Shown in pieces: positions 6,380-60,618 of a stretch of 64,000 bases of DNA (positions are counted from its first letter, which is position 1; each line of letters opens with the position of its first letter). The stretch comes from Siphonodentalium dalli. Its lineage: Eukaryota; Mollusca; Scaphopoda; Gadilida; Siphonodentaliidae. The stretch covers positions 154,803,043 through 154,867,042 of the forward strand of contig CP136069.1 of assembly GCA_032622095.1 (NCBI GenBank), read 5' to 3'. Made by a program: the position numbers and the translations under genes. The notes under the pieces are model-generated. The model was not told the DNA's origin. It did not search any database and saw only the letters and a list, made by a program, of their open reading frames with translations.

Positions 6380-6478
6380 TCAGCAGTTGTCGCTACTTGG
6401 GGAGTCCGTGAGGTATATGTGGATTGTAGTCAGTTTCCCGACAGTACCCAAACAGGTCGGCACTGGCTTCAGGAACGC
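6380..6478 (-). CDS. Copy A terminal coding exon
   Basis: The acceptor CATTTCAG precedes GCGTTCCTG. There are 32 codons in phase 0, then TGA at 6380-6382. The peptide begins AFLKPVPTC and ends TDSPSSDNC. Copy B keeps the same frame and stop with four amino-acid changes. An alternative frame is also open in A, but its stop is lost in B, which decides the frame. Confidence 0.8.
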   Translation of the reverse strand, partial: AFLKPVPTCLGTVGKLTTIHIYLTDSPSSDNC

Positions 6479-9400
6479 CTGAAATGAGACAGGAAATGAA
6501 ACACTAAAAACAAATTGTTAAAATTAACTATATATATACTATACTAATTATTAGTTAATTTTTAACCCAATTATTTGGATGACCACAACCGACTAAACAA
6601 ATATAATTATAATGCAATTATTTGATAACCCAACTTTACGTCGCGTCAGAACTATAAGGTCGTAACTCCATTTTGGCGGGAAATGAGTATTTGATATCAT
6701 TCGAATCGTGAGAAAAAATCCAATCCGATGGGCCAAACTGGATGGCAAATATTCTCACAAACCAGTGACACAAATGTCGTATCTCCAGCGATCTTCACAA
6801 TTATTCGTGCTATAAGGTCGTATGTCCAACAGCAGCCAATCGGATGCTTCAGGTTGTCCATGTGACTTCTGTTTTGTGTTTGTAAATTCTCAAATGTGTG
6901 CTATATGGTCGTATCTCCATGTTAGTCACGTGATCATCTGGTGATTTAAATTTTGTGATTGTTCCACAAATTTCTGTATGATGATGCACGTGAGTAAATA
7001 TTCATAATGTAGAATAGGCACTTTTTAATTCGATTGCCACCATATTTAGCTTAATCTGTATTTATTAGCACAACTTCCTTATAGCACGGAAACCAATCGT
7101 CATTGGCGTATACGCAAAAGGTCGTATCTCCAAACAAACTATTGCTTTTTAAAAGAAAACGAGGTAGTAAACATACAACAATATGTGGTTCAATGGACAG
7201 CTAATGCCAGTTTTCATTGTGATAAATAGAACAATACGTCATGCTTTGTCAACATTATGAGAAATGTTGTATGAAAACTTCAACCTTCATTTTCTCGGAA
7301 AGTTGAAAATGTGAGTTACGACCTTATAATACTGATGCGCCGTTTAGTCGGTTTCGACTAAAGTGTAGTTACAATCGACAAAATGAAAAATTAACCCAAT
7401 GTAATTTTCGTTAACACAATTGCCTCACTTCTCAAAGGACTAAGCTTCAGCTGAAAGTAACAAAATGAATTGTGTCTGTCAATATTTGGTTACAATCAAT
7501 ATTTAGTATAGTTCCACAACCCAATAGTGGGTCACCAAATGGAGTTTTGTCACAAACTCTGACTAAATATTAAGTTAATTTCAACTGAATTGATTGGGGT
7601 AATCAAATATTTAGTCATTATGCTGAAAACGTTGGGTAAGGTTCTAGTTACAAAATGTAACCAAATGTTTAGTAAATTTCAACTGAATTAATTACCCATT
7701 ATCCATTAAGCTGAACAAAGTTTGGTAAGGTTTGGTGAGCAGTGGTCCCATTGTAAGAGGAAGGTTTCAAAGTTTAAAGGTACTCAATCCGATCAGACGC
7801 TCCGAAATTACTATTTCTTTGGCTTCGGGGGTAAACAATATTTTATTCGAGTCGAGGAACCCACTCATTAAAGCTCAGAGTGATCAGATATAGATTTTTG
7901 CGGATGAAGATGGATAACTCTAAAAGCAAGTGGTTAGTATTATAAGTGTTTCTGTGCCACTTATTATTGAACATCTCGAGAAATAACAAACTTCAAAAAT
8001 CGATATCTGATCACTCTGAGCTTTGATGGGTGGGATCCTCGACTCGAATCAAATATTGTTTATCCCTGAAGCCAAAGAAATAGTAATTTAGGAGCGTCTG
8101 ATCGGATTGAGTACCTTTAAGTGCGAATCATGTATATAAGACCTAGAGTGTAACATATGCTTATTTTCTATAATTAAAATAACTTATAAACTAAAATATA
8201 AAAGACGGTCGTGAATATCAGAGACCATTATTGAACGACACGGCGTTATTTTATATGAAAAAAAAATCAAATGAAATCAATAATAATTGATAGACGCGTT
8301 TCCGGACAGGGGGTCTCTGATTCGTATTTATTATCTCATACCCAGGAAACTATATATTAATCATGCTGCGGAGAAGATAATCTATCTTTAACATTAACTT
8401 AACCAATATTAACAATGTCACACAGTTATGTTATGTAAAGCGGGACCATCCTACATCTACTCTTGGCCTACTGAATTGGTATTCTATACCATGATTGGTT
8501 CTTACCGACAGCCCTGGCATTGTGGGATGTTCGTATCTGTTTGAGACGGCATTGGCGGGGAATGCGAATCCGAAAGCGTTAAGCTTCCCTTCGTTATACA
8601 GCACGAATGCCGGGAAGAACCATCTACAGTCCATGTTCTCCGTTATGTTCCACCAATAATGGTTACCTGAATAGAATAAAAGAACAATAGTATCGTTACA
8701 CTATTTACAAAGCTATGGTTATGGTAACCCAACTTTGTAACCAAACGTCGGGTTAAATTAACCACACATTGGGTTTGAAGTATAACTAAACATGGTGTTA
8801 GAGAAAACTTATATGTCAATATATAACTATATTTCATCTCAATGGATGAGTTTTGACCACATAATCTGATATTCTGGTCATTAATTAATTTTCCCAAAAA
8901 TAATTGATTCATTTCGGACATAAATATCTGAATAGAGGAGAGATATGCTCTATTAAACCAGACTTCGAACCTAGTATGTAATATGAAAGTCCGAAAAAAG
9001 GTGTTATAACATATAATGACTTCCTTTTCGAGAATAAATTAACAACATTTATAGAAAAGAATACTGAAACAAAAAACGCAAGCTATACTACAACAGTTAC
9101 TATATAAGTCCGACATAACAGATGCTTTCACCGTGTATTTATTTGGGTTTGATAAACTGAAGAAAATGTGACAAAGAGAGCTCTTATCAAGCAAATCGTT
9201 ATCAAGTGGCGCAACTTAAAAGCAGTGATTATTAACTAAACTAACCTAACCCAACAATTTAACCCATCAATTGAACCCAACTTCTGGAATTTCACCCAAT
9301 CATTAACCAATCTTTGGATAACCCAACAATTTTTACTAAACTTTATTTTGGGTGTGGTGGTTTTAAACTAGAAACTCTCTTTGTTACCTCCCAATACGGT

Positions 9401-12400
9401 TCCGGGATCAACATAATTATTACATAGCTATGTCGATCAATTCGTTAAATACTCTTGTGTGTACTTGATATGCCGATATTCCTTCGACCTTTCTCGTATA
9501 AACTCAGGAGACGTACTATTTTTCGCTCAGTTTTAAATTCGCGTGGAAACGAGTACTGTGCGAATTTAAAACGAGCGAAAAATAGTACATCTCCTGAGTG
9601 TATACCACATTTTCATAGGGAAAATAAGAGGGTGTGTTAATGAGTTGCATACAATACGGAAGATTTGACTGAATAGACAATTGTATTCACATGCGGTCAA
9701 CCAACCCCAAAACCATGTAAAGTAAAGCAATTAGTCATGGCAAAATGTTCGACGTTGCCTTGCTTGTAAAACGCGCACACATACTAAGCTGACGATACAC
9801 AAACGAACGCACGTCTCCGTGACATACATGTGGTCTGAGTTAATTATATGTCAACCGAACCATACAACTTTAAAATGCACGCGGCCAATTTTTTATTTTT
9901 CCTCAAGTCAGAAGCCAACGCGGTTGTGGTTAAACATATTTCGAGTTCATTACAATTGTGTTTATAACTATATATATGTAACTAACAGAATAATCACTTG
10001 GAGCATCTTCAAAACAAAATGATGATGCTGTAATGTCATGCTCTGTTTAAATTTCCGGCGTGATTGTCCGCAATATGCACAAGTATCTTCGGGAACCATC
10101 AATAAACTAAACTGTCATCATTAACTTTTACAAAAATATTTTTGTCAGTTTTGCGCTAATTCAAAGTAATTAAAACAAAGTGAAAATCAGCACTGCGCTA
10201 ATTTAAATACGGGTAAGGTATAGTTCAAAGATGTCCAATAACTATATGGCACATGCAGTATAAGTATACCAATTGTCACCAAACTCCACCATAGTGACCC
10301 AGCATCAAAGGCTGCAAATAGTACGCTAGCTATCCCGCACAGTGGAATAGAATCACCAAATTCACCCCCTGGGACCTCGTTTTGCTTAGGCTTCAACTGC
10401 TATGGGAGACCTAGGATCAGATTGAAGTTCCTCAGTTGAGGTTGTTCACACATTAGTCACCTCGACTATCCATTTTATCTTCTGGAAATTAGGGGATATA
10501 TATTATATATAAACTGATGCTAAGGGAAAAGGTAACTAAGACAATGTTAATTTGAGAATATATGTACTTCCCAGAAGATGAGGCCTATGCAGAATGAGGT
10601 CCCGGAGTGTGAATTTGATGATGCTAGCCCGATGTGCGGGATAGCATCACTAAATTCACCCTCTGGGAACCTCATTCTGCAAATGACAGACACACTATTT
10701 GCAGGCTTGACTGTGCTATATATACGTGTGGCAGCTGTCATTATACTTTCTAGACGGGCTCTTGTCTGCAAACTTTAACATAGTCACCCATTCTTTTTTA
10801 CTTACCCATGGCTGGGAAGCATTTGCCGCCGCCGAATTCAGTCGTTGCGATGTTTGACTCGTCTTTCGGGAACGTGATGGAGTCCCGAATCGGGTGTGTT
10901 CCATTCTGTATATATATTCCAGTACCGGTCTCATTCAATGACGTCCGACCAGTCGTACATATTATGGCTGAAATAATATGTTGTAGTGATGACTTGCAGA
11001 TATGTTATGCAGAGTCGGGGAATTACAGTAATGCTCTAATTAATCGACCTCTTAACCACATCAGAATTATGGGTAACTTTTCGGGATTTAGTCGGAAATA
11101 TGGCTTGTTACTGTATATCTTTAATTGTTCTTTGTATTCAGCAGCAATATATAAACATACTACTGTGATACTGGACGTCCAGATGACTTGCAGATATGTC
11201 ATGCAGTGTCGGGGAATTATATCTTTAATTGTTCTTTGTATTCAGCAGCAGCAATATATAAACATACTACTGTGTTGCTGAGCGTCCAGTATAACAGTAA
11301 TAATTATCAGTCCCAACAGAATAATCTGCTGAGATATACGTCTGGAACTAATAGGTGAATATTCTCAAATGGTTATCTGTGCAAACAAATTATGCTACAT
11401 TTGCAGTCGGTAAAAATCCACTTGAATCAATAATCTGAGCGAGGTTAACGTTTTATCTCATATTATTATGCACTCCAGTTATCACCATGAACATCCTATA
11501 TAGCCCTGTGTCACATGCACGGTGCTGTCCACGAATGTGACACAGGACTGTCGCAACAACCTCACTAGTTTTGCTGCAATCTCTTAAACTTGTCCAAAAT
11601 CTCTATAAAAGTACAGCATTGTTCAAAATTCAACCCAGTCTTGATTAAAACGACCATATAGAATATTAAAGTAGGCACCAACCGGCCATCCAAATACCAA
11701 ATAGTCTGTGTGAAATTGTGAAAACGCCATCATATGTTCATATTGCACTTATCATTCGGGGGCAGCAGGAAGGCGGCCAGCTAAGTCATGCTGCTCCTGT
11801 GCAATAATATACTTTTGTTAATATATTGTATATTATTGTGCAAATATATAGAATACATCAATAGTAGCAGAGAATAACAAATTTTCACCACGAGTGGTAT
11901 TGTGGTTTTAACCACGAGCCTTTGGCGAGTGGTTAAAACCACAATTCCACGAGTGGTGAATTTTTTTTTATTCTCGGCTACTATGGGTGTATTTTGTTTA
12001 TACCATAATTATTATCTTCGGTCGCTTCGTAAATGTATTGCTACTCCGTTGGTGACTGTTAACATGTATGTGCACCGAGTGGCCCAAATATGTTAAGCTA
12101 TCATGAATGTGGGTCACGCGTAGTAATACATATTTCTAGGAAATTCGGTGATCCGCCACTTTCTTGGGCATCAGTCAGCTGATGTGAACACACATTCAGA
12201 TTTCCCACATTGCAGATACCATTAACAATCTATACGTTGTTGTCAAAATGTAACCCGTCGTTCGCTTTAAACACGGAAAGGCAGACGAGCACGTGCGTTT
12301 GTTTTGTTTACATTTTCAACAGCTATCGCCGACCAGTATAAAACGTGTACTTTGTCGGTGCATGCACCTAGCATAAAACATCTTTAAACTAACTTTAATG

Positions 12401-15400
12401 TGTCATTGTTTGACAAGTAAACCCAGTAAATGGAATTGGATAGTATATATCTCTGTGTTTAGACCACTTATCGCATTTCAGAGTGTTTTGAGTCGGAAAA
12501 ATTGTGTATTTACTTCGCGAAGCGGGCGTGACGAAAAATTGGGCTAAATTTCGACAGCGAGGTCACCAGAGGTCAAATGACGGGTCGTTCTACTATGGGT
12601 ATAAACTTTTAACACATAAAGTGCCATTTACACAACAGTAGAAATTTATACCAATAGTAGGAATCGTTATACCCACAGTAGGGTATAAAGATGAAATTTA
12701 CAAAACAGGTGTTATACACACAGTAGCATAGCCAATTATGGTATACAAAGATATATTCTATTCTATTCTACGTCTGATGGCACAGAAGTCAGAAATCGAG
12801 TAAATTGTTCTGTACATGTTACAGTTAACTTATATTATAATGATATCCACGTACATTTCTTTGACCACAATGCTTTAAGGCAAGCATTATATTTACCAAT
12901 TGATATAATTAGCAGCGTAACCATGTCCGACGTGTTTTGGCCGAAGACCATACACTACATGTAAATCAAAAGTTTACTTAAAATTAACTAACCAATATAT
13001 AGTTAACTTTTAACCCAACTATCGTGTTGCCCACCACTGACTAAACAAAGGTCAGCAAATTATCTGATAATCCAACTACTAGTCGGTTCCGACTAAACTT
13101 TAGTTACCAATGCCTAAACTCAAAATTACCCAAATTTGGGTTATTATGGTAACCCAATTTGCCACAATTGTTAACCGACAAAAACATAGGTAAAAGTAAA
13201 TAAATTAATTGAGTTTGTCAACATGAATTGCAATGCACATTAAATACTCACATGGATTGACGAAGTACGCGGTGATGACGTATCTGTTGCCTTCCACATT
13301 ATAGGCTGCATGGTGGCTCTCGTGAATAACTACGTTCGCAGTGCTTTGGTCAAACTGTAACGTATTCACGGAAAAGACTTGATAAATTTGTAATTGCTGC
13401 ACCGTTGACACTATACATCGAGAAGTGCTCCATTCAATAATATATATATCTTTATTCCTCCATATAATGAAGAGCATATATATAAACATTATAAATAAAT
13501 TGAGAACACAAATATATCCTGCATGCAGGAATTTGGCTATACAATATACAGGGTTATATAATTTGACTGACAAAGACAAATACGAACATATTTGAGGGCA
13601 TATAAGTATGCATACCCTCACGAGAACCGGCACGATCACACATCCGCACACTCACATACACGCCCACCCTCACTCACATACACACATATACATACACACA
13701 TACATATACATACACATGTATATACTCATATATACAATATACATATATATACGAAAATATACATGTATACACATATAAATGCGCGCGAGAGCGCAAGTGC
13801 ACGTACACAGCCGCGCCAGAACTCGTGAATATATGCATGATTATATACGTATATATAAATGTTCATTTACATATATATGCTTATATTCATATACATATAT
13901 TCACGTAGACATACACACACCAACACACACATATATGAATACATATGTAACGATCAGGTACCTATATATGCACGTTTATATGAGCATGTATATCTGATTA
14001 AGTATACACCAAGGCATATATGGAACATGGCTGTATGATGAAATAAAGGGTATGGAATAATTCGCATTGAGCTGAAGCGGGACATTTTATGCTGTGTTAA
14101 AGAAAGGTTATGCTTTGTTAAGACGGTTATCTGAAGTGCAAGCGAGATAACTCCAAAGTTTGGATAATTGCGAAAGTTATATGGCATGAATATACATATA
14201 TATATACACACATGCATATGTATATATACACCTATACACATGTATATATATATATATTCTTACGCCTACATATGTATACACACATACAATTACACATGGG
14301 TATGGCTTGTGTGATCATGCATCCGGGAGAATACACATGGGTATGGTTTGTGTGATCATGCATCCGGGAGAATACTGAGATTCATGGATGTCCGTTGAAG
14401 TGAGCTTAGTGAGGCTATGTAGAGTGTATAGTACGTAAACTGTAAACAGTGTATACATGTAGGAAATATGGGTAATTTTAAATATATACATATTTGGCGG
14501 AAGGATGCATGGTACTGAATTGGCCAATGCTGCATGTGACAGAGATAATTTACCAAATAACAGTAAATGAATTAATAGAAAATTAACGCTATTCTACTCC
14601 GAAAGAGCGCTGATCACTTTAGTTAACCATTATCAAAATGAAACCGTTTCCACATAAATGCAGATGTCCTAACGAGCAAGCGGGACAGATTAGAGTGGTT
14701 ATCTGAGAGTAGAGCGAGATCTCTAGGTGGCGATCCCAGAAGGGCAGACATTAGCTGCAAACGGGGTATTTGGTCTATGTAGAGGAAACAGTCAATGCCA
14801 TAATTGTCAATGATGTGGTACCACATGTCATTCCGAATATGTAGCAATGACGGGCAATCTAACAAGATATGTTGTACTACACATGAGTAGGTCGCTAAAC
14901 AATGTTTGCATGTATCATTCTGTCCGAAAGCTGTATGGGCGATTATGCGACCGATCAAGAGGAATACAAATTTTTCCTCCGGAAATTGTGAGCATAGTTT
15001 CCATATACCGATCGTCCGTAGCGTGGGATGAATCATGAATGGTACGGAATGCTGTTAAAGAGGAGTCGCCGGAGATACGATTATACCAGTCAAGTTCAGC
15101 TAACTCCTTTACAGCTGTCCTTACCAAGCGTTTCCACACCACGGGCGATGGAAATTCATTGGAATTAGCATATTCAATAAGGTGATGTTCCATATTATAT
15201 TTGCATAGAATGCGCCATATGTCATGTATAAAAGATGTTTCATCCGTTGACAGACCAGATATGAAATCATACAAACGTCGTAGGAATAACTGTTTTGATG
15301 CTTTCTCGTGATTTGGCCCACAGAAAGCGCCAAGCATTGAGAGTTTCCGACGATCGATCCACGATGCTAGCGAGGAACAGCCTAGACAGCCTTGTGCAAT

Positions 15401-18400
15401 AACTGTTCGGGTCCTCGTCGGAAAACCTTGCATATGCTTGATGCAAACTCTGTGGGCCTTCTCAAGCTTATCTATTTGTGTTGTGTTTAGGTTCCAGAGA
15501 AGTTCACTGCCATACAACCCTGAAGGGATGACTATTGTTCTGTAAAGTTTGTATGAACTTTGAGGAGAGATACCACCAGGGTATAGGCCAACATCGGAGA
15601 GGCCGAAATATGCCCCCCTTAATTTTGTGCATATAGCATCGACAAATTTGTTATTGAAATAGGATTTGGAAAGCAGAATTCCCAGGTGAGTATAGAAGTC
15701 AACTTCTCCGAGAAAGGATGATCCAAATGCCCATGATCTTGCACATTTATCGGCTTCTTGTTTTGATTCATTTAAAACCATTATGACGGTTTTCGATGAA
15801 TTATAACTGAAGCGCCATGTATTACTGTATTCAATGCATAATTCATATAAGCCAATAAGACCTGGGCGGGATAGAGAGAGAAGCATCATATCATCGGCTT
15901 GGGTGGGAGATGAACAATTCAGTGAGTGGATACGAAGGCCCAATTTTGATTTTTTCAATAGCTTACATCGATCACAACGCGGAAGTAAACCCCATGATAG
16001 TTCTGGGAACCACACAGAAATTTTTCCGTATTGTGTATTTGTCAAACAAGGAGAGGAAGGATTTCAGTTTCAATCGGAGTCAATTAGAGTGTGATATCAG
16101 TATGTGTTAATACCTGTGACAATTCAATTTGTGTCCAGTTATTTATAGTGAAATATATTGTTATGGTAAAAATATCAAACATGACATGAATTTGAGTTTA
16201 TTCTTAGAACCCCTGTCACACTCAGGCCGGCGCTTGCATTGCGCTGTAAAGGTACCAAAATATGAGTAACACACAGGAGGAGCGCGGAAAACTGTCCAAA
16301 ATTGTCAAACAAAGTATTGCGTTCATACTTTGTCAAGTCTCACGCTCTCTGGTCATTGGTGCGCTCAAGTCGCTGTTATTGTGTTGCTAGTACGTTCTAA
16401 ATAAGTTTGCAAAACGTTCTCTGTGTGGGCGCGGAGAGTATAAATAGCGTCTCCTGCGTTCTCCAGTCATAGTCAGTGTTTAGGTTGTGGGGAATATACC
16501 CAACAATCCGCAATAGATTAACTGTCCGATTAAACCACTGCCACACTCCGCTGCGATCAGGCCGGCGCTTGCATTGCGCTGACAAATTATCAAAGCGCCA
16601 AGCAAAGCGCACTAAGGTATCCAAGAACCTATTGGTTACGCAGTTGACACTGGCTAGGACGGGAGAGGGTCCCCGTGATCGCCCCTGAGCGCCAGAGCAC
16701 CGCGCTTGTTTTGTGCATGCACAAAACAAGCGGAGAGTTTCGGCGTTATGACCAGGCGCAGTACCGTCGCCACGACAGTGCAAAGCGAACGACATGAGCG
16801 CCCCGTTGACTTAGCGAGGACCGATACAAGCTACTCGTGGTCGCAGCAAGAATTCCTCTGCAACTGCAGTAAGCTTATACTACGCCTTCGTCCGAACGCC
16901 GAGACTCTGCGCTTGTTTTGTGCATGCACAAAACAAGCGCGGCGCTCTGACAGCGCAAAGCTAGCAACATGAGCGTACCGTTGACGTAGCAAGGACGGAT
17001 ACACGCTACTCGTGGTCGCAGCAAGAATTCCTCTGCAACTGCAGTAAGCTTACTACGCCTTGGTCAGAACGCAGAGCCTCTGCGCTTGTTTTGTGCATGC
17101 ACAAATCAAGCGCGGCGCTCTGGCGCCAATGGCGCGAACATGGGGACCTTGGCCCGTCGTAGCCAGTGTCCACTGCGTCACCAATCGGTTCTTGGATACC
17201 TTAGGTCGTTTAGGTGGGCGTTTTAATACTTTTGCAGCGCAACGCAAGCGCCGGCCTGAGTGTGACAGGGGCTTTATGTACAGTTCAAAATAAACAAAAC
17301 ACTGAAATATTAGGTTCCAATTTCCCTATGCATTTCTATGGAGGAAAAGAAGGGATATGTTGATTTGTATCTACTGTTAAGGTCAATAGATAAAAGCGTT
17401 ACCCCGTGTCTGTTCACGTAGTACGGGTTTATACCTATACCCTCAGCCAGCCGTATCACATTCGGCCTTTGGCATCATGTGATGCGGCTGGCTTTGGGTA
17501 AGTAAAAACCCGTACTACGTGAACAGACACGGGGTAACTAATAATATCGTAATCCGGAAGTTACAATCCACCAGCAATCCCCCAATAGTTACGCATCATC
17601 TGAACGTGAAAGTCTGACCTAAAAATTTGGGTATGGAATAAATTACGATGTCAAAACTTTACAGTTATGTGTTATCATACATGTGACTGCTTATATCTGC
17701 TGCGAACGGAATGCCAATAGATTAATTCGTTACCCCGTGATTTCATTTCGATTTTGAATCTATTTATTTTTTCCACCTCGAGTTGTTGTCGGCCTAGCAA
17801 ACAATCCACCGGAAATACATGTATTTACGAGCATGCACTGATGTCGTAACGAGAGAGCGGGAGGTCACGCAAGGTTACGGTTCGCGGTGGCTTTGATGAT
17901 AGGAATTTATTTTCAGAATAAATTAGGACGAAAATTGACGCTATGTTGTGATAGTTGGCACACAGATACATTGGTATATACTTATTTCCGAATCAGTAAT
18001 CATGTTTTATTCATGAAAATCGACAAGTTATAATATCATTTCGATCACGTGGGTTTACGTGTGTGATGGCACGTGCTCTGAGATTCCATTGCGGGCCAGG
18101 CATCACGATATATGGAATTCGAACCGGAGAAAATAAACATATTTAAAAAATCGAAATCTAACTGTTTGAGCTTTGAAGGGTGGGTTCCTTGAATTCAGAT
18201 ATATTTCACATCTGAAGTCGAATGAGCAGTAATTTATGGGTGTTTAATCGGAAAAAAACATCTTAAATCCATTATGCAGCTAACAGTATTTTAAAGATAC
18301 TCAATCCGATCAGAAGGTTCCCATACCATCAAGATACAACAACAACAACATTTCCTCAAATACTCTTTAGTTATCAGAATCGATGTGTTGCAACAAAATG

Positions 18401-22220: not shown

Positions 22221-22334
22221 CTGGAAGGTATAAAAATAAAATGAGTTTAGCACATAATGCCAGATAAATGACAATCATTCATGTATAAGTACGGACAATA
22301 AAACAGAAACACATTAAAGATGTCCCATCCTATC

Positions 22335-22825
22335 AAACAACTTACCATTGGCACGTCTTCTTTACTAGAATATAATAGGTCGTACCAATGAGCCTACGAA
22401 AGGAGGCCATCCTGTCCAAAAACTTACCATTGGTACGTCTTCTCTTCTAGAATATAATAGGTCATACCAATGAGCCTACGAAAGGATGCCATCCTGTCCA
22501 AAAACTTACCATTGGTACATCCTCTATTCTAGAATATAATAGGTCGTGCCAATGAGACTATTAAAGGAGGCCATCCTGTCCAAAAACTTACCATTGGCAC
22601 GTCTTCTGTTCTAGAATATAATAGGTCGAACCAATGAGCCTACGAAAGGAGGCCATCCTGTCCAAAAACTTACCATTGGTACGTCCTCTATTCTAGAATA
22701 TAATAGGTCGTACTAATGAGACTATATATGAAATGAGGCCATCCTGTCCAAAAACTTACCATTGGCACGTCTTCTGTTCTAGAATATAATAGGTCGTGCC
22801 AATGAGCCTACGAAAGGAGGCTAGA
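22335..22825. repeat. Array of six ~82-bp hairpin units with splice-donor motif
   Basis: Each unit carries ACTTACCATTGG (GTAAGT donor on the minus strand), TCTAGAATATAATAGG, an inverted CCAATG arm and AGGCCATCCTGTCC. The CATTGGYACG and CGTRCCAATG arms form a hairpin in each unit. Unit B has eight copies at 60735-61385. It sits just upstream of the first recognised exon of the minus-strand gene. Confidence 0.8.
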
Positions 22826-22857
22826 ATTGTCCGATATAGACTTTCATAAAAGCAAGT

Positions 22858-23140
22858 TTTAAAGGTACTCAATCCGATCAGACGCTCCTAAATTACTATT
22901 TATTTGGCTTCGGGGGTAATAAATATTTAATTCGAGTCGAGGAACCCACCCATCAAAGCTCAGAGTAATCAGATAACGATTTTTAAAGTTTGTTATTTCT
23001 CGAGATCTGCAGTAATAAGTGACCCAGAAAGACGTTGTCAAACGGACGGTCTTGCGGATGAAGATAGTTAACTCTAAAATCAAGTGGTTATTATTACCAC
23101 TTGATTTTAGAGTTATCCATCTTCATCCGCAAGACCATTA
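22858..23140. mobile_element. Long-TIR MITE, family 1, one-armed copy
   Basis: Has the left arm (AAAGGTACTCAATCCGATCA to TTATTTCTCGAGAT). It then has an inverted centre around AAATCAAGTGGTTATTATTACC and GGATGAAGAT/ATCTTCATCC, and lacks the right arm. The orthologous copy at 61416-61690 has the same truncation. Confidence 0.7.
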
Positions 23141-23256
23141 CCCCGACAAATCAATTGAGGTGCTCTCTACATTTAATTCAGGTAAGATCATGTATGCTGA
23201 TCGTATAAAAATATAGACTTCACACTATTCCATGGATGAGATTTTAAACGACCCAC

Positions 23257-23336: not shown

Positions 23337-23354
23337 AACAATAGGATAAAGGTT

Positions 23355-23672: not shown

Positions 23673-23769
23673 GAATAACGAACGATAAAGTGTATCAAAA
23701 CAATAGGATGAAAAAGTGTTGACGCGTATAATCGCATCGTATCCCTTCGCCGCCTGATAGGTCAGTATA

Positions 23770-25857: not shown

Positions 25858-25862
25858 TATAT

Positions 25863-48300: not shown

Positions 48301-51300
48301 AAATAGTCTGTGTGAAATTGTGAAAACGCCATCATATGTTCATAATGCACTTATCATTCAGGGGCAGCAGGAAGGCGGCCAGCTAGGTCATGCTGCTCCT
48401 GTGCAATAATATACTTTTGTTAATATATTGTATATTATTGTGCAAATAAAGATCTATTCTATTCTAATCGACGTCTGATGGCACAGAAGTCAGAAATCGA
48501 ATAAATTGTTCTGTACATGTTACAGTTAATTTATACTATAAAGATATACACGTACATTTCTTTGACCACAATGCTTTAAGGCAAGCATTATATTTACCAA
48601 TTGATATAATTAGCAGCGTAACCATGTCCGACGTGTTTTGGCCGAAGACCATACACTACATGTAAACCAAAAGTTTACTTAAAATTAACTAACCAATATA
48701 TAGTTAACTTTTAACCCAACTATCGTGTTGCCGACTAAACTTTAGTTACCAATGACTAAAATCAAAATTTGCCAAATTTAATGTTATTATTGTAACCCAA
48801 TTTGCCACAATTTTTAACCGACTAAAAGATAGGTAAAAGTAAATAAATTATTTGATTCTGTCAACATGAATTGCAATGCACAGTAAATACTCACATGGAT
48901 CGACGAAGTACGCGGTGATGACGTATCTGTTGCCTTCCACATTATAGGCTGCATGGTGGCTCTCGGGAATAACTACGTTCGCAGTGCTTTTGTCAAACTG
49001 TAATGTATTCATGGAAAAGACTTCAGACTTGCTAAATTTGTAATTGCTGCACCGTTGACACTATACATCGAGAAGTGCTCCATTCAATAATATGCATGTA
49101 TGTGTTTTTATCTATTGACTAGTGTGTATGCTTATATCTGACTGGTCAATAGCTACACGCCATGCATGGGACCGTCTTCGTTGAAATCCATTTCCACCGC
49201 CCCACTGAACAATTTCCAATATTGTATTGACTAGTGTGCTATCTTCAATTTGATTGGTCGATCGCTACACAAGATAAACCCGTATTGTGTGGACAACATC
49301 GAACCCCGTGATATTTAGCTTACATCGACCACAACGCGGAAGTAAACCCCATAATATTTCTGGGAACCACACAGAAATTTTTCCGTATTGTGTATTTGCC
49401 AAACAAAGGAGAGGAATGATTTCAGTTTCAATCTGAGTCAATTAGAGTGTGATATCAGTATGTGTTAATACCTGTGACAATTCAATTTGTGTCCAGTTAT
49501 TTATGGTGAAATCTATTGTTATGGTAAAAATATCAAACAGGACATGAATTTGAGTTTATTCTTTATGTATAGTTCAATATGATCAAAACACTGAAATATT
49601 AGGTTCCAATTTCCCTATGCATTTCTATGGAGGAAAAGTAGGGATATGTTGATTCGAATCTACTGTTGAGGTCAATAGATAAAATCGTTACCCCGTGTCT
49701 GTTCACGTAGTCCTACGGGTTTTTACCTGCCCTCAGCCAGCCGTATCACATTCGGCCTTCTGTCTCATGAGATACGGCTGACTTTGGGTAGGTACAAACC
49801 CGTACTAAGTGAACAGACACGGGTTAGCTAATAATATCGTCGATCCGGAAGTTACAATCCACCAGAAATCCCCCATAGTTACGCGTCATCTGAACGTGGA
49901 AGTCTGACCTAAAACATTAGGTATGGAATAAATTATGATGTAAAATTTAAAGCTATGTGTTATCATACATGTTACTACTTATATTTGAAGTTCTGCTGCG
50001 AACGGAATGCCAATAGATGAATTCGTTAACCGTGATTTGATTTCGATTTTGAATCTATTTATTTTCTCCACCTCGAGTTGTTGTCGGCCTAGCAGACAAT
50101 CAATCCACCGGAAATACATGTATATACGAACATGCACTGATGTCGTAACGAGAGAGCGGGCGGTCACGCAAGGTACGGTTCGCGGTGGCTTTGATGATAG
50201 GAAATGATTTTCAGAATAAATTAGGACGAAAATTGACGCTATATTGTGATAGTTGGCACACAGATACATTGGTATATACTTATTTCCGAATCAGTAATCA
50301 TGTTTTATTCGTGAAAATCGACAAGTTATAATATCATTTCGATCACGTGTGTTTACGTGTGTGATGGCACGTGCTGGGGAATTCCATGGCGGGCCAGGCA
50401 TCACGATATATGGAATTTGAACCGGAGAAAATAAACATATTTACAAAATCGAAATCTAACTGTTTGAGCGTTGAAGGGTGGGTTCCTTGAATTCCGATAT
50501 ATTTCACATCTGAAGCCGAATGAACAGTAATTTATGGGTGTTTAATCGGACAGGACATCTTAAATCCATTGTGCAGTTAACAGTATTTTAAAGATACTCA
50601 ATCCGATCAGAAGGTCCCCATACCATCAAGATACAACAGCAACAGTTCCTCAAAATACGCTTTAGTTATCAGAATCGATTTATTGCAACAAAATTATGCT
50701 AATCACTGTCAACTATGGTATCAAATTTCCCAAAACTTGTTATTTATCAACATTTTGTTCAATAAAATATGGCCGTATTATCACTAAAGTATGACGACAT
50801 TTGACCGTGTTACCACTTGATTTTAGAGTTATCCATCTTCGTCCGCAATTTTGTCCGAGACCCTCCGTTTGACCACGTGTTTCTGAGCCACATATTATGA
50901 CACATCTCGAGAAATAACAAACTTCAAAAATTGATATATGATCACTCTGAGCGTTGATAGATGGGTTCCTCGACTCCAATCAAATATTTTTACCCCCGAA
51001 GTCAAAGAAATAGTAATTTAGGAGCGTCTGATCGGATTGAGTACCTTTAAATATCGAAAACTGCAGCTATATTATACTCACGGCAGTTTGAATGCCAGCT
51101 ATAAATCCGTTGACGTCAAACAGAAGAGCCACGGCGTAGTCTCCGTTTTTTATATATCGCTTTCCAAGAAAGAGAGGATTCTCTGTCAATAAAAATAGTG
51201 AGGCGCTTGTGTTATGTCTGCATATATCAGTTTACCACCCGAAAGTCCAGATAAAGACCATTCAGGAGAAGTATCGATCCGCTCTCTGTTAAACCGCCCA

Positions 51301-54300
51301 AATGACGAAGGTGACTTTTGTTATATCTACGTCCCTTTATTCTGCATGGTTTATTTGGGTCAAACAAAGGGTGTCTAATTGTTGTCTCCAAGAACGATAT
51401 ACCCCGAAAACTTTTCCCCGATCCAAAATGGCCATCGCCCAGAAATGACCGATTGTCCAATGTCGGTCTAGGGTGGCCACGAACAAACATTTTTCGAGAT
51501 ACCCCAGGATACCCTCCAAAAACCCTCAAACGATCCAACTTGAATTTGGACGCCGTCCAAAGAAGCCCGATCCGGCATCTACATGTATGTGCATTTACAA
51601 TAATGCACCATACTATAACCGATGCTGACACATGTGCAAGACCAGAAACACGAAGCATGCAGACTACCCTCCCTGTTCAAGCCTGCAAATAGTGTGTCTG
51701 TAATTTGCAGAATGAGGTCCCCAGAGGTTGAATTTAGTGATGCTGTCCCGCCCAGCTATATAGTCCTAAATTAACATTGTTTTCAGTTACTTTTTCCCTT
51801 CCAGGAAGTTTCTATATCCCCTAATTTGCAGAAGACAAAATGCATAATCGATACATAAACTAATGGGTGAACGTAACCAACTTCAATTGGGGAACTTCAA
51901 TCTGATCCCAGGACTCCCAAAAAGCAGTTGAGGCCTATTCAGAATGAGGTTCCCAGAGGGTAATTTGGTTGCGCTAGCCCGCTGTGTGGGATAGCTTCAC
52001 TAAATTCACCCTCTGGTGACCTCATGCTGAAAATGACAGGCACACTGTCTGCAGGCTTGTCCCTGTTCAAAAGCCGTAACTATAACTCCGGCTGAATAGC
52101 CCAAGAGTTTACTCTCACTTAAAAGTGCTGAAGGGTACTCGGGTTATGAGACTTTGGAGAATATGCGCTGAAGGGTACACATGGTTTGCTATCGGCGCTG
52201 ATCGATGCACTTACGCCAACTGCGTTATACCGCATGGATCTGCATACACGTCTACATGGCTACCATCAGAACTTTATTTCCATTTCATTATATTTTGCAT
52301 TTTAATGTAAACAATTCTTCAAACAAATAATCGCCGCAGACGCAAAAACTAAACAACATAATTTCGAACGAGATTTAAAAGCATGTGTACCCTTCAGCAC
52401 ATTTTCCAAACCTGTGAACCCTCCAGCTTTTCTTTTTAGGTGAAAGTGACCCCTTGAGCACAAATCCGTGCTTATCCAGAATCCAAATTATAGAACCAAC
52501 TGTGTCATTGCTGGATGGCTTATGGCGGACTAGGATGTCATTTAGCTTACCGAACACAGAGTCGTTATCTCGTGGGAATCCGAATTCAGAATCTGGATTC
52601 AGATTACAGATTAGACCCCGTACGACTTGGTTCGGTAAACGAACAGACCAGAAATTGGCAGAATCAGTAAACGAACAGACCGTAATCTAAATCTCGTGGT
52701 AACCCAGATTCGGATTCGGATTCCGATTGTGGATTCAAATGTTCGTAATGTAAACAAACCGAGATTTCGCCACCTCGGAGTTTAAAAACACAATAAAACA
52801 TAAGAATCCGTCTCTTGTGTGCAAATTATTGCAGAATATAAACGATCTATATCAAAGAATTTTAAATGCGGAGACAAATTTGTTTTATCGAATGCAAACT
52901 GGGTGAATATTACTGAAATTAGCCAAATAATAACGCTATTGATGGTAATGCTGGGGGAGCACTTCGGTTGATGGCGAAGCAAATCATTGTCGATTTTATT
53001 GTCACTTTCATATGTCCATTTCATAATTCCATCCATAAAATACCGCCCGAACGCATGTTTCTTCTTATTCAAGAAATAGTAGGATTATATGATATCGATG
53101 GATTATCAGATACACGTATGTACTATCTAGTCTTATAGCAATTTCATGTTTAAAATGTTTTGTTTCGTTAAATGCAGTCGTTTTGCACAATAGTCTCTGT
53201 ATAGACATCAAACACAGGTATTTTTTGGCCAACGTGCTGTACAATAGCTGGAAACTAAAGCTTTGCTCATGAAGCTAATGTTGTGGTCTTGTGATCGCAG
53301 GTGAACTGCATCTCCCAATCGCACAAACAAAAATGTAAAGCTTATTCTAGGATCTCAGGACTATATAGTGGAAATGTCAGTCAATTTATTGATTAAGTAC
53401 CCACACGTACAAGTTCTAGGGACGTGGCTAGAGGTTTCCTCAAATTTCCTGCCAACTGCACCCCCCCCCCCCCCCCCATTGAACCAAACATCAATCTCAC
53501 AGGTTCGCAGAATTCCATTTGCATCCCTTGGAAATAGCCAACCTGACACACACTAAGATTGTAAAATTACCAACTTTTACTGGTTGAAAAAATCAAACTA
53601 TGAGAACAATTCCAACCTATATATGGTGTAAAATTAATGTCCAACTAATGTTGTGTCATGCATGAAATTTCCAACTGCTGGAAATGTACCAAAGTTTAGT
53701 TTAAACATATTTATTTCAAATATTTGTCAAATTTAGATAACACATGCTATATAACACATACATTTGTTTATACATACAATGGGATTGGGGGACAAGACTG
53801 TTAGTGCTGACTCACTGAAGGATACCCCCTCTCCCATATGTTATTACACTGAAAAAGTAAATAATTAGTAATGGCAAAGCAACATGACTACCAAAACAAG
53901 TTGAACATATATACAGATCACCGGTCACCCCCTCTCCCGAGTTAGTCATAAGTTTGTATATGTATTTATTTAAAATCGGGTTTGTTTGTTGCGTCTGCTG
54001 ACTTGTACGTATAATTATTTGGAACAGTTAGTCAAAAGAATCCTGATTTTTCCTCACGTATGAATGACTGCACAGCTAAGCAAATTGTACCAAAGTTCGG
54101 GGGGGGGGGGGGTCGAGACACCCAACCAACCCCTGTCGTCACGTCCCTGAGCAACTGACAAGTTTCGTGTGTTCTTCACAACATCTTCGGAATTTGATTC
54201 AGGAGGCCTAGAGCTGTTAGAATTAAATGCTTGCCCTCATCGATAAACACACTTTAACTTGAAAAAAAAGATGCGATTAAGTCGGATTGGCAGCAAATTA

Positions 54301-57300
54301 TGTGCCGTGTATATACGCATAAAAAAAGCATGACTTTCACAACAAACGTGAACTTTATAAATATAAGATACAAATGATACTTGTGTCAAATACATGAGCC
54401 ATGTTTGACGCTGGGAGAACATTAAACATAGTTTCGGAGACCACGTGGATTACAAAATCTGACCTAGAATCAGGGGGGGGAGTCGGAAAAATTTGCAGGC
54501 ACGTATGCTGATTTTTGACTTTCGACCCTTGTTGGGACCCACCCACCCCCGCGTCCAAATTTTTATCCGTTTTCGGCAGTTTTTTCCGACCCTTTTTTTA
54601 CACCCACCCCCCTTTTAACACTAAAACAGAGATTTGCGGGGGGAATTTCACTGTAAACAGTTGTATATGAATTTCTGTGCATAATATTAGTCATGGATGT
54701 GAACATTGGCATGTAAATAGGAACAAGTCATTTTGGGGTTATTCGGTCAAAAAAAACATGGCTGCCAGCAGCCATCTAGGATTTCAAAATTAAATCCATT
54801 AGCATGGGCTACAGGCTACACTGTTTGTCTGATCATCATGAAATTTGTCATTTATGTTAATATTGACATATAGATGTGTTTTAAGCCAAACTCATTGCAA
54901 AAACAGTCAAAAAGACTTGCAGGAAAAATATTTTTGAGTTACGGAAAAAATTGTTTGTTGGTCCTATCGACCACCCACCCACCCCGGCATACGTGCCCGG
55001 AAAAAACTTTTTTTCCACCCCCCCCCCCCCCCTGCTAGAATCGGGAATTAGCCCCGCCCCCGTAATCGGCTTTGGATTCTGAATCCGGATTCCCACGAGA
55101 TAACGACTCTGGGGATTTCGGCTAGTTTAGACTATTAGACTTTACCTATATTCATATATAGCAGGCTAATTTTTACATACCTGTGCAATCAGAAAACTTG
55201 ACCCATCCGTGTTTCAGTGCATCTGTTTCGGTCCTCGGCAGTGCATCGAAATTCCAATGGTTCAAAGGGTTAATGCCAAATGTCACTACAGAATAATAAA
55301 TTGAAAGAATTAATACGTCTGTTCCATGTCAGACTTGCGCGTATGTACCATAAGCGCAAGTCTGTCATGCGTGTCAGTTTCTCTGGTAGTATTATACTGC
55401 TAGATGTCCCTGGCAAAACAAATGTGTGTATATATATATATACGTTATTATTGAGCACAAATCCGTGCCAATCCAGTATCCAGAAGCTAGATTACGAAAA
55501 GACCTGCACATAAACAATTATATGGTACTGTCACGGACATGGAATTTATCTTATTTATGGAAAGATAGCAGACGAAATTATCATAGATACGCGACACCGC
55601 ACAGTGGAGCCGTCGGCGAGGTATTGTCTTGTATCGGCTGCAGCGATAAATTGTCTGACTAAATATAGAAAATCAATACTTTTCGGCATCTCACATTCTG
55701 ATTGGTCAATGTCGGATATAAAAGGCAGACTTTTATGGGGCTCAGGTTAGAAGTCTTCGGATTTCTCACCTGTCAAGATCTAGAGCTGAAATGAAGAGGC
55801 ATCCCTCAGTGAAAATGGTCATGGAGCACACGGTCAGCCAAATGCATTGATAGCCCTTACTGTCGCCTAGCAGAAGACTGAAAAGTGGTCGGAGCTGTCT
55901 TTTGAAGAAAGACCAGTGGTAGGCTGTCGATATATTGGGAATCCCAGGTATTTGGTGACCAATGTGTGCTTCCATGTCGTTTTCATTTGGGTTATGCAGA
56001 TCGAAGATTTAAAAGAATCAGTGAGCATTCATTTCTCAACTTTTTGCATCCCTCAGAATGGATGGCTATTTCTAACGTCTTTGGACGCCTTCTATTCCTC
56101 GAATTGTCACACAATGTTTGGTCTGCCAATTCAATGGAAACCCTGATTGTCGACCAGTGGAAGAATCAATTCATTGGGCGGTCATATGCAGAGTCTGGCG
56201 ACATGTTGGGTAGACCTAGTAGGTTACACTGGTGTAAATGTTTCCCATAGGCCTCAGTGCTAACGTTTTAGCGCATAGTGTTGGCAATATAAATGTTGGG
56301 TCCAAAATTTTCTTTAAATCTGAAAAATTGACATTTTGGGAAACTTTTTACACAAAAAAATCATGTCTGTCTAGCAGGGAATTCGCCTTTAAATCTTATG
56401 TTTTCGTAACTAGTGTCAGAATCGCATAAAAAAATACAGTCATATTTTAGACCACACCAAAAAATTCAAACTCCACTACAAAGGGTTAATTCCTGTGCCA
56501 ATGGTTATTTTACCTATGGGAAATCATAGGGAAGAGGTATGATGATTTTTTTATGTGAAAAGCACACAAGGCTATTGACCAATCAGGGCCCAGTGTCTAT
56601 TTTATTCTCTCCTATATATTCCTCCCGCATCCACCAGATGTCGCTCGGAACCTTATTTACACCAGTGTAACCTAAAGCGATAGCCCGCTTTTTCGCGGAA
56701 TAATTGTAACTCCCTACATTTCTTCAGAATTGCCCATCAATGGAAAAAATGTGTTCAAAAACAATATCACTTCTGTGGTTCTTTATTTATCACACACAAT
56801 TTAACCCCACCCCCTTTAACAAATTATTCATCAAAAAAGCACAATTTTCCACCACCAGTCATGTTCAAGCCCCATTTTCACTCAGTTTTAGGGGTCTGGT
56901 GTTGCAAACTTGGATCAGCTATGGAAGACTGTACAATATTCTTTCCATGAGAGAACTTCTGGTGATGTGAGGTCATTGAGTCCAGATCTGATCAGCTGAG
57001 CATCAAGCGCATGACTTTATCAGCACATTGAAGAATAAAATATGACATTTTCAGGTCTCCAAGGGTGATCCAAGATAACTGGATGTGGGTGTATATTGAA
57101 TTAGTTGAATAAAGATATGCTCTCTTTGAATTGCTGAATCATTTTCTTAAATGTGTCCAAGTTTTAGTGCTATTAACCTTCAAATGACCATACCCACCAA
57201 TGGAAATGACACACTTTCATGATATATATCTGTATATCACTGGCTATAAAATCCAAAATACTTGTTAGATTAGGTTCTTATAACAATTGATATATGTGTC

Positions 57301-60300
57301 GTTGACATGCTCATGTTATGGGTCATTTGCATTATCATGTGACTATTACAACCTTGAAAAAATTTGAAAATACCTTGAAAAATTGGCATTTTTTATGAAA
57401 AATCTTACTATTTTTTTGGCTGATGTAAGTGAAATAAGACATCAGCAGAAAGAATAGCCACACCAAGCATGAGGTATTCATTGGACTGAAAGACCAGGCT
57501 CTGTAAAATGCATTAAAATGCTTTAAAGTGACTCCCAGGAATCAAAAATGATAAAAAGCTATATTTTCCCTTTAGGTTACACTGGTGTAAATGTTTCCCA
57601 TAGGCCTCAGTGCTAACGTTTTAGCGCATAGTGTTGGCAATATAAATGTTGGGTCCAAAATTTTCTTTAAATCTGAAAAATTGACATTTTGGGAAACTTT
57701 TTACACAAAAAAATCATGTCTGTCTAGCAGGGAATTCGCCTTTAAATCTTATGTTTTCGTAACTAGTGTCAGAATCGCATAAAAAAATACAGTCATATTT
57801 TAGACCACACCAAAAAATTCAAACTCCACTACAAAGGGTTAATTCCTGTGCCAATGGTTATTTTACCTATGGGAAATCATAGGGAAGAGGTATGATGATT
57901 TTTTTATGTGAAAAGCACACAAGGCTATTGACCAATCAGGGCCCAGTGTCTATTTTATTCTCTCCTATATATTCCTCCCGCATCCACCAGATGTCGCTCG
58001 GAACCTTATTTACACCAGTGTAACCAGTAATTGGCGGCCAAATATTGTGTGCCAAGTGAACGATTCTCATTTTTGTATCCCCCTTGATTGGTAATTTAAG
58101 TTTAATTGGAGCTCTTTTATGGGCGACCTCTCAGTTTGACTTGCTAATTTTTAATAGCTATTTGGTCTCCGATTGTCACTCCAACCTTGGACTGATGTGG
58201 GCAGCCACCGAAACAAACGATAGGGATGAGAAGAGGTATCCCTTAGAGAAGTCACGGTCAGCCAAATACATTGGTAACCCTTACTATCGCTAGCGATATA
58301 TTGGGAATTCCAGCTATTTGGTGACCAATGTGAACACCCGTTGGTGCATCTCAGTGCGGCGTACCTTGAAATTTAAAAAGGATTCACTGAGATTGGTCGT
58401 GCTCGATTGGCATCCCACTCGTTAGACAACCTCCACAGCCAGAGAAGTATCTGGGAAGACCAGATAACTCTTAAAGAATGATAAGGTGATGGACTGGCTG
58501 TGGTTGGAAATCCTGGGTGCGATCCAACCTTGCACGATTGATGATTTTGATGGGATGACGTTTGCAGAATTTTATATATATCTAAGTGGCTGGCTGCCCA
58601 CAACTGCCCTAGTGGTTGGACGACAACTGGGTCTCAAGAAAGTTGGCGTACCAGAGGAGCTGAAGTTGGGCGTGCTCACAGTGACACCACATGGTTAACA
58701 CACTGAGAGCTTCCCACTTCATTTAGACGATATTAATTATAGAAGACTTTTTGGACAAGTTGACATCCCTGATTCCGGGTTGGCATCTCAGATGGAGCTC
58801 TTGTTGGGGGTCGGCCATCAGTGGCGGACCAGGCAGATATTTTTGGATGACCAGTGATGATGGTAACCAGAAAGGTATACCTCTTGATTTTTGGGATACC
58901 CTGCCTGATGGTCGACCAGCCTGGGTTGAGTGACCGGACCGAGGTCAAAGACTCCGTCACAGATGGCAGGCACTCAACCCCGTGAGCAACTCATGATATG
59001 ATAACCCTCGGAATCCTATTCTTACCTGACATGTGCAGAGATATTAACGAAGACAATGCGGAATTATACGACTTGGTTGACGGGCCATACCGGAGTCACA
59101 CCAACCTGGACACCCTAAGGTCTTAGTATAATGGGCGCCTATTAAAGCTGTACAGACGAGATACGCAGAAGACCGAAAGCTGTGTCCAGGCTGGATGTAC
59201 CGGTATGTGTCGCCAACATGGTGGGTTGATCAAATTTAAATAGAGAAACTGCGGCATGGTAACGTCTCCAGATGTGCGCCTTTGTTTGACAAAGATGTGT
59301 AAGTGAATAATCATGCCGTAATGCCTCGGTCATGTGGTTTTGACGGTGGAATCTGGAGCTAATAATTCTAGGGCCAGGTGGGAAATGTGATTTCTCCCCT
59401 TAGTATGTGACAGAGCTGAGACTAGGGCCAAGACGGGAAATGTAGTTTCTCTCCCTAGTGGTCCCACTGTCAAAACCTATGAGAATACACATCTTTCGTC
59501 GAACAAAGGTTGGCGTCGCGGATTCCTTCTCTTGTGGTGCACATCTGGGCCTGATGGAAATTTACAAAGGCGAGGGTCCTAACCTATAGATCATGATTTA
59601 TCACTATGGTATTCATACCATACAACGCCCTGGACCACTTCAGACTGGTGAATGCAGCAATTGTTTCTCTGCACATGGTCGGGTAGATAGGCGATTTCGG
59701 TCATGGAAGTCAAAGTGGAAAATTCAAGACAAATAAATTGGTTGACAGATCGATATTTGGCTGCTGGTGTGCAGTTGGCGTGACAGTCTAGATGGACGGC
59801 TTGAGTGTCCGTGAATTACAACCTGACTGGGTTCTGTCCCTTAAACTGTCAGTAGACGGCACAGCCGCCCATCTAGATTGTTACATTTTATTGCACATCA
59901 TACTCAGTCATGGATATATAAAACACCCAAATAATTATGTGGTCAAATTTTCAAAAATGATGATTCATTTTTTATAAGTTCCTGAATGTTCTTTTAAGTT
60001 CTTTACATGTACAAGCACAAGTACAAGCACAATAAACATCCCTTCTTTCAGATTCCAATCAGGATTTAGAAAAAATAAACACTCCCACTGTCTTTTGTGT
60101 CTTGTTTGTCTAACTCACTTAATTGAATTCATATTGAGGCAGGAAACTATTGCTGTATAATTATGTTATAGACTTGCAAAAAAAGCATCCAGCCTGTTCT
60201 CTTCAAACTAAGCTCATATTAAACTTATTTTAAAAAACACAAATAATCCCATATCGGCATTACTTGAATCTGAATTACGCTCCATTGGAACCTAAATCTA

Positions 60301-60618
60301 CTTACCAGATGTATGCTCTAGATAATGTGTTTCCGCTGTGGCCCCCACAATAACACGGAACGAAGGGTATATTTAATAAGTCCACTGGGGCTTATTTCAG
60401 AATCCAATATTTCCAGTATGAACCTATGTGAATATTTAGGTCCAATATGAACCTATTTGCACGAGGATTTGTTGAGAAAATCATGATATCCTAGCTACTT
60501 TCTAAATTACAAGCAATTTGTAATTCAGATTCAAATAATGCCGAAATGGGCATGTAGCTTTAGATCCGTCTACAGATCACTAACTATGACTTACCGCGCA
60601 GACCGTTCCACGTCGGCG
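42219..60618 (-). CDS. Unnamed secreted-type protein gene, copy B (partial 5', intact frame)
   Basis: Minus-strand exons: 60595-60618, 60306-60335, 55181-55285, 51082-51182, 48895-49060, 47618-47779, 44483-44643 and 42219-42317. All seven junctions keep frame, and split codons give V/A, V, E, S and G residues. About 281 residues are recovered. They hold eight cysteines (even, suiting disulfides), sequons NET and NGT, and conserved blocks GWVKFSDCTENPLFLGKRY, FDVNGFIAGIQ, YVITAYFVDPS, GKCFPAMGNHYWWN and LNAFGFAFP. No membrane segment, catalytic motif or named domain is recognised. Extracellular location is inferred from cysteines and sequons. The initiating exon is not identified. By hand count about 25 replacement and 13 silent differences separate A and B, suggesting weak constraint. 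Confidence 0.75.
42556..43369. mobile_element. ~0.8 kb TIR element (GGGTGGATACACAC ends)
   Basis: Inverted ends GGGTGGATACACACTTGTAT and CATGTGTGTATCTACCC. CTAA (or TA) is present on both sides and once in the empty site of unit A (about 7440). Two minus-strand frames (43001-42714 and 43287-43102) are open but I do not recognise them. A poly-C run lies at about 43085-43098. DNA transposon relic or non-autonomous copy. Confidence 0.7.
43693..44093. mobile_element. Long-TIR MITE, family 1
   Basis: Ortholog of 7777-8121, slightly longer in the centre, with both arms present. Confidence 0.75.
44483..44643 (-). CDS. Copy B exon with NHYWWN motif
   Basis: 161 nt, phase 1 to 0, donor GTAAGA, acceptor TTCTATTCAG. 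Six replacement nucleotides and four silent changes against copy A by hand count. The sequon NIT of A is replaced by NLQ here. Confidence 0.85.
45497..46158. mobile_element. Palindrome-ended insertion, ~0.66 kb
   Basis: Absent from unit A at about 9975. The right end is a palindrome (about 46020-46142) with arms CTCTCATATGATATTTATGA and the inverse, and an inner GAATTTTCAGTTTTCTC/GAGAAAACTGAAAATTC pair around ACCGGAGGCTC. No coding frame was seen. Confidence 0.75.
46754..47309. mobile_element. Palindrome-ended element, second copy of the 19062 family
   Basis: Same ends (AGAGGATCTACAACGAG to GTAATAAATAT) and the same one-sided hairpin as 19062-19615. Inserted where unit A has an intact site (about 10505), so the two copies moved independently after the duplication. 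Flanking TATAT is compatible with a short target duplication. Confidence 0.8.
47395..47530. mobile_element. MITE family 2 copy
   Basis: Ortholog of the 10590-10720 structure. Inverted GCAGAATGAGGT/ACCTCATTCTGC arms. Confidence 0.55.
47618..47779 (-). CDS. Copy B exon with TTGRTSLNET and GKCFPAM motifs
   Basis: 162 nt, phase 1 to 1, with intact acceptor TTATTTCAG and donor GTAAGT. Differences from A are H/N, R/Q, D/N and G/V, plus four silent changes. Confidence 0.85.
48895..49060 (-). CDS. Copy B exon with CQRC and YVITAYFV motifs, intact
   Basis: 166 nt, entering in phase 0 after TTCTCGATGTATAG and leaving in phase 1 at GTGAGT. 55 codons are open, starting CQRCSNYKFSKSEVFS. This is the intact form of the exon that carries the 7-bp deletion in copy A. 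It supplies two cysteines. Confidence 0.85.
49687..49829. repeat. Palindrome shared with unit A
   Basis: Ortholog of 17398-17538. Same double-level inverted structure, with more mismatches between arms. Confidence 0.7.
50587..51051. mobile_element. Long-TIR MITE, family 1, larger copy
   Basis: Ortholog of 18292-18755. Confidence 0.7.
51082..51182 (-). CDS. Copy B exon with ALLFDVNGF motif
   Basis: 101 nt, acceptor TTATTGACAG, donor GTGAGT. 33 codons, one replacement (T to I) and two silent changes against A. Confidence 0.85.
51677..52065. mobile_element. MITE family 2, most complete copy
   Basis: About 390 bp. Ends AAGCCTGCAAATAGTGTGTC and its near inverse, ending CTGCAGGCTT. Inverted GCAGAATGAGGTCC arms lie inside. 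This copy best defines the family's termini. Confidence 0.7.
52558..55110. mobile_element. 2.55 kb TIR element
   Basis: Ends AGAGTCGTTATCTCGTGGGA and its exact inverse, followed by a further inverted GAATCCGAATTCAGAATC-like stretch. It replaces a continuous site in unit A (about 21260). The interior shows poly-C or poly-G runs (about 53461-53477, 54099-54112 and 55017-55032). It also has an inverted AGGGACGTG/CACGTCCCT pair (53420 and 54138), suggesting nested material. No transposase was recognised. Confidence 0.75.
55181..55285 (-). CDS. Copy B exon with GWVKFSDCT motif
   Basis: 105 nt, phase 1 to 1. Same splice sites as copy A, with seven extra codons (INPLNHW-type) after TFG. Ends GWVKFSDCT plus a split codon. 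Confidence 0.8.
56222..56672. mobile_element. 451-bp MITE, left copy
   Basis: Ends GGTTACACTGGTGTAAAT and its inverse ATTTACACCAGTGTAACC. Preceded by AGTA. Appears identical base for base to 57575-58025. Confidence 0.85.
56673..57574. other. 902-bp segment between identical MITEs
   Basis: Begins TAAAG and ends CTTTA. It has one short open frame (56740-56970) without recognisable features. It has no purine tract or primer-binding site, so an LTR-element reading is unlikely. Confidence 0.5.
57575..58025. mobile_element. 451-bp MITE, right copy
   Basis: Same as the left copy in length and, as far as I can see, in sequence. Followed by AGTA, the same four bases that precede the left copy. Confidence 0.85.
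60306..60335 (-). CDS. Candidate 30-nt microexon, copy B
   Basis: Preceded by CCACAG and followed by GTAAGT. Phase 1 to 1. Same nine inner codons as in copy A. Confidence 0.5.
60595..60618 (-). CDS. Candidate 24-nt microexon, copy B
   Basis: Acceptor TACCTTTCAG, donor GTAAGT. Phase 1 to 1. PTWNGLR plus split codons. Confidence 0.55.

Follow-up and report, generated by a model that had tools for sequence, protein, structure and literature searches.

A small clustered gene family with a doubled exon and a predicted secreted product in the scaphopod Siphonodentalium dalli

We observed that a 64,000-nucleotide stretch of the genome of Siphonodentalium dalli (GenBank assembly GCA_032622095.1, contig CP136069.1, positions 154,803,043 to 154,867,042 of the forward strand; hereafter the window) holds two copies of a spliced gene, the second of which extends past the window end. 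With a probability of roughly 0.75, we consider these genes, A and B, to be functional-looking paralogs in a small animal gene family encoding a secreted glycoprotein. Practically certain in our judgement are the exon anatomy, the intact frames, purifying selection across older paralogs, a cluster of four genes, a divergent fifth locus and the doubling of exon E3 in two genes. An earlier sequence-only reading had proposed a duplicated, spliced, protein-coding gene without a recognised family, which was right as regards Pfam, NCBIfam, PHROGs and PDB sequences. That observation holds in substance: the thing found was real and its size was misread.

The two direct copies that had been claimed were confirmed by self-comparison and fetched flanking DNA, the end of copy A (~27718) being approximate.

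Duplicated unit, copy A: 5714..27718, no strand assigned; from self-comparison and fetched flanking DNA
Duplicated unit, copy B: 41547..64000 in the window and on to 66794, no strand assigned; from self-comparison and flanking DNA

Copy B thus ends 2.8 kb past the window end. Self-comparison showed ~85-95% identity between A and B over nearly all of the 20-kb unit, with insertions that are unlike between the copies (for example ~2.5 kb at 13443-15959 in A, absent from B). Gaps open 118 times over the 11,321 bp of aligned A-B DNA, or ~10 times per kb, counted in HSPs over 400 only and with the minisatellite left out. No tRNA and no Rfam match was found within the window.

In each of the two genes we read seven coding exons, all of them on the minus strand.

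Copy A, E0: 25264..25336, minus strand, 73 nt; start codon and predicted signal peptide (MLTYSFLIIGVAITFADA...), donor C/GTAAGT, phase 1
Copy A, E1: 22197..22220, minus strand; 24-nt microexon (..PTWNGLH), phase 1 in, 1 out
Copy A, E2: 18908..19008, minus strand, 101 nt; phase 1 in, 0 out
Copy A, E3: 13252..13354, minus strand, 103 nt; single in A, doubled in genes C and D
Copy A, E4: 10806..10967, minus strand, 162 nt; phase 1 in, 1 out
Copy A, E5: 8506..8666, minus strand, 161 nt; carries NHYWWN, phase 1 in, 0 out
Copy A, E6: 6380..6478, minus strand, 99 nt; TGA at end
Copy B, E0: 64850-64922 in window coordinates, minus strand; lies 850 bases past the window end
Copy B, E1: 60595..60618, minus strand, 24 nt
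Copy B, E2: 51082..51182, minus strand, 101 nt
Copy B, E3: 48895..48997, minus strand, 103 nt
Copy B, E4: 47618..47779, minus strand, 162 nt
Copy B, E5: 44483..44643, minus strand, 161 nt
Copy B, E6: 42219..42317, minus strand, 99 nt; TGA at end

Exon lengths are identical between A and B for all seven exons (73, 24, 101, 103, 162, 161 and 99 nt), and the splice sites are intact at 12 of the 12 introns of the two genes, with AG acceptors, GT donors and matching phases agreeing between the copies as the sequence-only reading had described. Its outer coordinates were equally exact: the TGA stop ends at 6380 and at 42219, and the 24-base exon begins at 22220 and at 60618. The span between them, taken to be complete, holds six exons; the start codon lies further upstream in E0. 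This exon was the single candidate common to both copies in a scan for ATG segments with a donor of the right phase, and its homologue in gene D was recovered by protein search. The same 24-nt E1 is also present in gene D. Where eight segments per unit had been counted we read seven coding exons, and the two further segments were not recovered in two filtered scans. Those scans, for additional in-phase exons with conserved A/B peptides, returned a few short or weak candidates without support from the other genes, such as 20173-20241 paired with 51791-51859, and all were rejected.

Searching the genome with the B protein returned 24 matches, of which 22 lie on C9 within ~203 kb, one on C7 (E 0.08) and one on C5 (E 5.3). 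Those on C9 resolve into four genes, of which D (154665074-154691640) is on the plus strand and the next three, C, A and B in that order, are on the minus strand. Gene D has seven exons totalling 720 nt and encodes 239 residues with either of its two E3 copies. In gene C, E2 to E6 are open and E0 was also recovered; E1 was not found in the stretches searched, which include a long array of 33-base repeats. The pair that had been read as isolated is therefore one duplication within a larger family. Three weak matches were not counted as members: C5:149861433 (E 5.3), C6:30865669 (E 6.85, one stop) and C7:189471123 (E 2.25), whose frames were unconvincing on inspection.

The C7 match with E 0.08 marks a divergent fifth locus on the minus strand, of which ~50.5 kb was read in pieces (81803000-81853510). 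When an HMM of genes A to D was run against 956 stop-free segments from this region, the top three hits were E5-, E2- and E4-like, in gene order (E 4.4e-7, 1.5e-4 and 1.7e-4, respectively; next E 0.69). Read from the sequence, the E2-like and E5-like exons are both phase 1 in and 0 out, and the E4-like exon has the same ATGG donor end as in A to D. A single E3 candidate (81840726-81840852) emerged from 7.3 kb under splice and phase filters only; it ends in MYTIT opposite the YVIT of A to D. The intron preceding E4 has the same phase as in A to D and is placed six codons earlier. Aligned to A to D, the locus shows 32% identity, with three of the five cysteines retained; the 50.5 kb read yielded no E0, E1 or E6, the last being the part with the other two cysteines. 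Genome-wide, similarity to the cluster is weak, with E 0.0124 to 0.08 for cluster queries, and the C7 query recovered itself, a further weak match elsewhere and, at a weak E of 0.011 to 0.33, genes A to D. By these matches the family comprises at least five loci in the genome, and more distant ones could be missed.

The predicted product of A and of B is 240 residues plus stop, with 219 of 240 residues in agreement. It contains five cysteines, at 104, 150, 168, 217 and 240, rather than the eight first reported, and three glycosylation sequons in A or two in B. The N-termini of A, B, C and D are hydrophobic with a small-residue end, as judged by eye from a simple hydrophobicity scan, and alternating hydrophobic stretches, as in beta strands, were likewise noted by eye. 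The HMM search with the joined copy B protein returned no family (Pfam at E up to 10, NCBIfam 0, PHROGs 0). Proteins A and D and the C7 fragment likewise gave no Pfam match at E up to 10; no PDB sequence was matched at E up to 10 by single-sequence or profile search; and there were no relatives in viral_contigs, genome_contigs or plasmids. A literature search turned up no such family by name, a result of little weight given its general terms. Calling the protein undescribed, as the sequence-only reading did, stands for Pfam, NCBIfam, PHROGs, PDB sequences and the bacterial, viral and plasmid collections, and is limited to those libraries.

The family may nevertheless belong to a known superfamily, for example ependymin-like proteins or another beta-rich secreted fold, and be too divergent for profiles. 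Predicted secretion, sequons, cysteines and the alternating hydrophobic stretches seen by eye speak for such membership, and the absence of any Pfam or PDB match for it speaks against; ependymin-like proteins in particular gave no profile match in Pfam, NCBIfam or PHROGs. We regard this as a real possibility that falls short of an even chance. Similar uncharacterised secreted proteins presumably occur in other invertebrates, with resembling NG-IAGIQ, YF-P-C, C-MG-HY and YN-G-L-FG blocks. A two-module internal repeat, with E2-E3 like E5-E6, was also suggested by eye, and intron phases (1 then 0) agree between these exon pairs. Shuffle tests of the two halves were not significant (D, local p 0.22 and global 0.06; B, 0.69 and 0.42), and the repeat was rejected.

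Genes C and D differ from A and B in the window by carrying two tandem E3 exons, E3a and E3b, each of 103 nt, separated by 72 nt and equipped with their own acceptor and donor. E3a and E3b are identical at 87 of 103 bases in C and at 90 in D, leaving 13 to 16 differences, and the E3 of A and B matches E3a and E3b of D about equally well (90-91/103). Since 103 is not a multiple of three, inclusion of both copies, or of neither, breaks the frame in gene D. Mutually exclusive tandem duplicated exons are a known phenomenon (PMC9741552, PMC7969005), and C and D show their usual anatomy in having adjacent homologous exons, a short intron and a frame that allows one copy only. Because exactly one copy keeps the frame, E3a and E3b look mutually exclusive, and we lean towards their being spliced as alternatives. 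The competing view, that one copy is a dead exon and the doublet has nothing to do with alternative splicing, gains from the use of one E3 in A, B and the C7 locus. Against it, all four C and D copies keep an open frame, the length of 103 and both splice sites, and the doublet has been kept in both genes despite a C-D dS of 0.28. We therefore think a dead copy rather unlikely.

The joined exons of A and of B form a frame of 723 nt without an in-frame stop, compared with 8-11 stops in the other frames, and the exons that it joins agree in their splice sites and phases. These exons are found again, intact, in C and D, and frames were intact wherever read among the family genes. For A and B alone, the excess of third-position changes was not significant (11, 6, 12; p 0.23), so the case for coding is carried by the older paralogs and by the intact frame. 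Taken with a dN/dS near 0.5 over seven exons (0.044/0.086), this result indicates weak constraint or a young pair. Over E2 to E6, dN/dS was 0.46 for A-B, 0.32 for A-C, 0.33 for A-D, 0.26 for B-C, 0.29 for B-D and 0.18 for C-D. The five older pairs, at 0.18-0.33, thus show purifying selection, and all five have a third-position excess (p 1e-7 to 4e-4). Synonymous divergence was 0.08 for A-B, 0.28 for C-D and 0.35-0.43 for A or B against C or D, which makes A-B the youngest split, C-D older and the split of A/B from C/D the oldest.

A and B could instead be decaying duplicates, that is, pseudogenes of a working C or D whose frames are intact through recent duplication. Their dS of ~0.08, a dN/dS of 0.46-0.51 that is the highest of the set and the lack of a significant concentration of changes in third positions would all fit such decay. 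We find it improbable, however, because neither copy has a stop or a frame-breaking indel in 723 nt, compared with ~10 gap openings per kb in the aligned surroundings, and none of their 12 introns has lost a splice site. Furthermore, the exons differ at 37 of 723 sites (5.1%), compared with 7.8% in the flanks (11 of 14 used, the three poorly aligned ones dropped), and dN/dS of A and B against C or D is 0.26-0.33. That the conserved open frames merely reflect recent segmental duplication of repetitive or non-coding DNA, in which ~85-95% identity over 20 kb makes short open frames look conserved everywhere, has next to no probability, since the paralogs already contradict it: these segments alone reappear at the protein level in C and D, together with their splice sites and phases, and in divergent form on C7.

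We therefore return to functional-looking paralogs as the preferred account. The precursor would consist of a signal peptide followed by a ~220-residue chain that carries five cysteines and either three sequons (A) or two (B), and the product would be secreted, glycosylated and disulfide-bonded. Secretion and disulfide bonding are most likely, as far as the predicted protein can tell. Our best reading is a disulfide-bonded extracellular glycoprotein with no sequence match among PDB chains, diversified by duplication and perhaps by exon choice. It might serve as an extracellular binding or recognition module, its middle segment (E3, before YVITAYFV) varied by duplication and exon choice; this role is a tentative guess from the anatomy of a secreted, duplicated protein with one segment switched. 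The fuller proposal is a long shot: the extracellular recognition proteins would form an undescribed family, their fold would be new, and their middle strand would be exchanged through mutually exclusive exons in some genes and through gene duplication in others. If it were true, a small cluster would yield a range of versions of a single binding surface.

Tandem clusters of secreted multigene families are a known class. The present cluster is like them in its local duplication, predicted signal peptide and moderate dN/dS, and differs in having only four genes and no known domain. In conclusion, the family is undescribed within the libraries searched, and its kind is ordinary: a few clustered genes for predicted secreted proteins, with one exon doubled in two of them. 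Homology-led annotation could miss such a family, because the frame of each single exon is too short to show up in an ORF scan and the profile libraries searched gave no match. The five loci, with their exon borders, form a defined set for transcript and structure work, and they offer a small natural example in which two paralogs retain a duplicated exon that is single in two others. Should the fold prove new, the family would be of interest to structural biologists; otherwise, an orphan family would have been placed.

Tandem repeats lie within or near several of the family genes, both in the two direct copies in the window (A and B) and in their paralogs C and D elsewhere on contig CP136069.1 (C9):

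22325-22821 of the window, 82-bp tandem repeat, 6.0 copies, near the 24-nt exon E1 of copy A
60723-61379 of the window, 82-bp tandem repeat, 8.0 copies, near E1 of copy B
C9:154757800-154771800, tandem repeat with a 33-base unit forming a long array, gene C region between E2 and E0

Repeats resembling this 33-base array come after E1 in gene D. The window also holds a further tandem repeat and, separately, two 300-base stretches (56220-56519 and 57573-57872), 1353 bases apart, with a reported identity of 100%:

31499-32828 of the window, tandem repeat with a 26-bp unit present in about 51 copies, 96% matches

One open frame lies mostly inside 13443-15959, a stretch present in copy A only:

14915-16063 of the window, minus strand, 382-residue open frame

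Among Pfam families, it matches reverse transcriptase best (E 0.097); since this match is under the curated cut-off, it only hints at a retroelement piece.

The E4-E5 junction of the divergent fifth family locus on C7 weakly matches another place on C7, at 189471123 (E 2.25), and a minus-strand frame close to that place bears it a vague likeness. This may reflect chance or a decayed relative.

Exon E3, single in A and B, is doubled in C and D:

C9:154753463-154753740, gene C (minus strand), tandem exons E3a/E3b, 103 nt each, 72-nt gap
C9:154678702-154678979, gene D (plus strand), tandem exons E3a/E3b, 103 nt each, 72-nt gap

From this arrangement, we propose E3a and E3b of both genes as candidates for mutually exclusive splicing.
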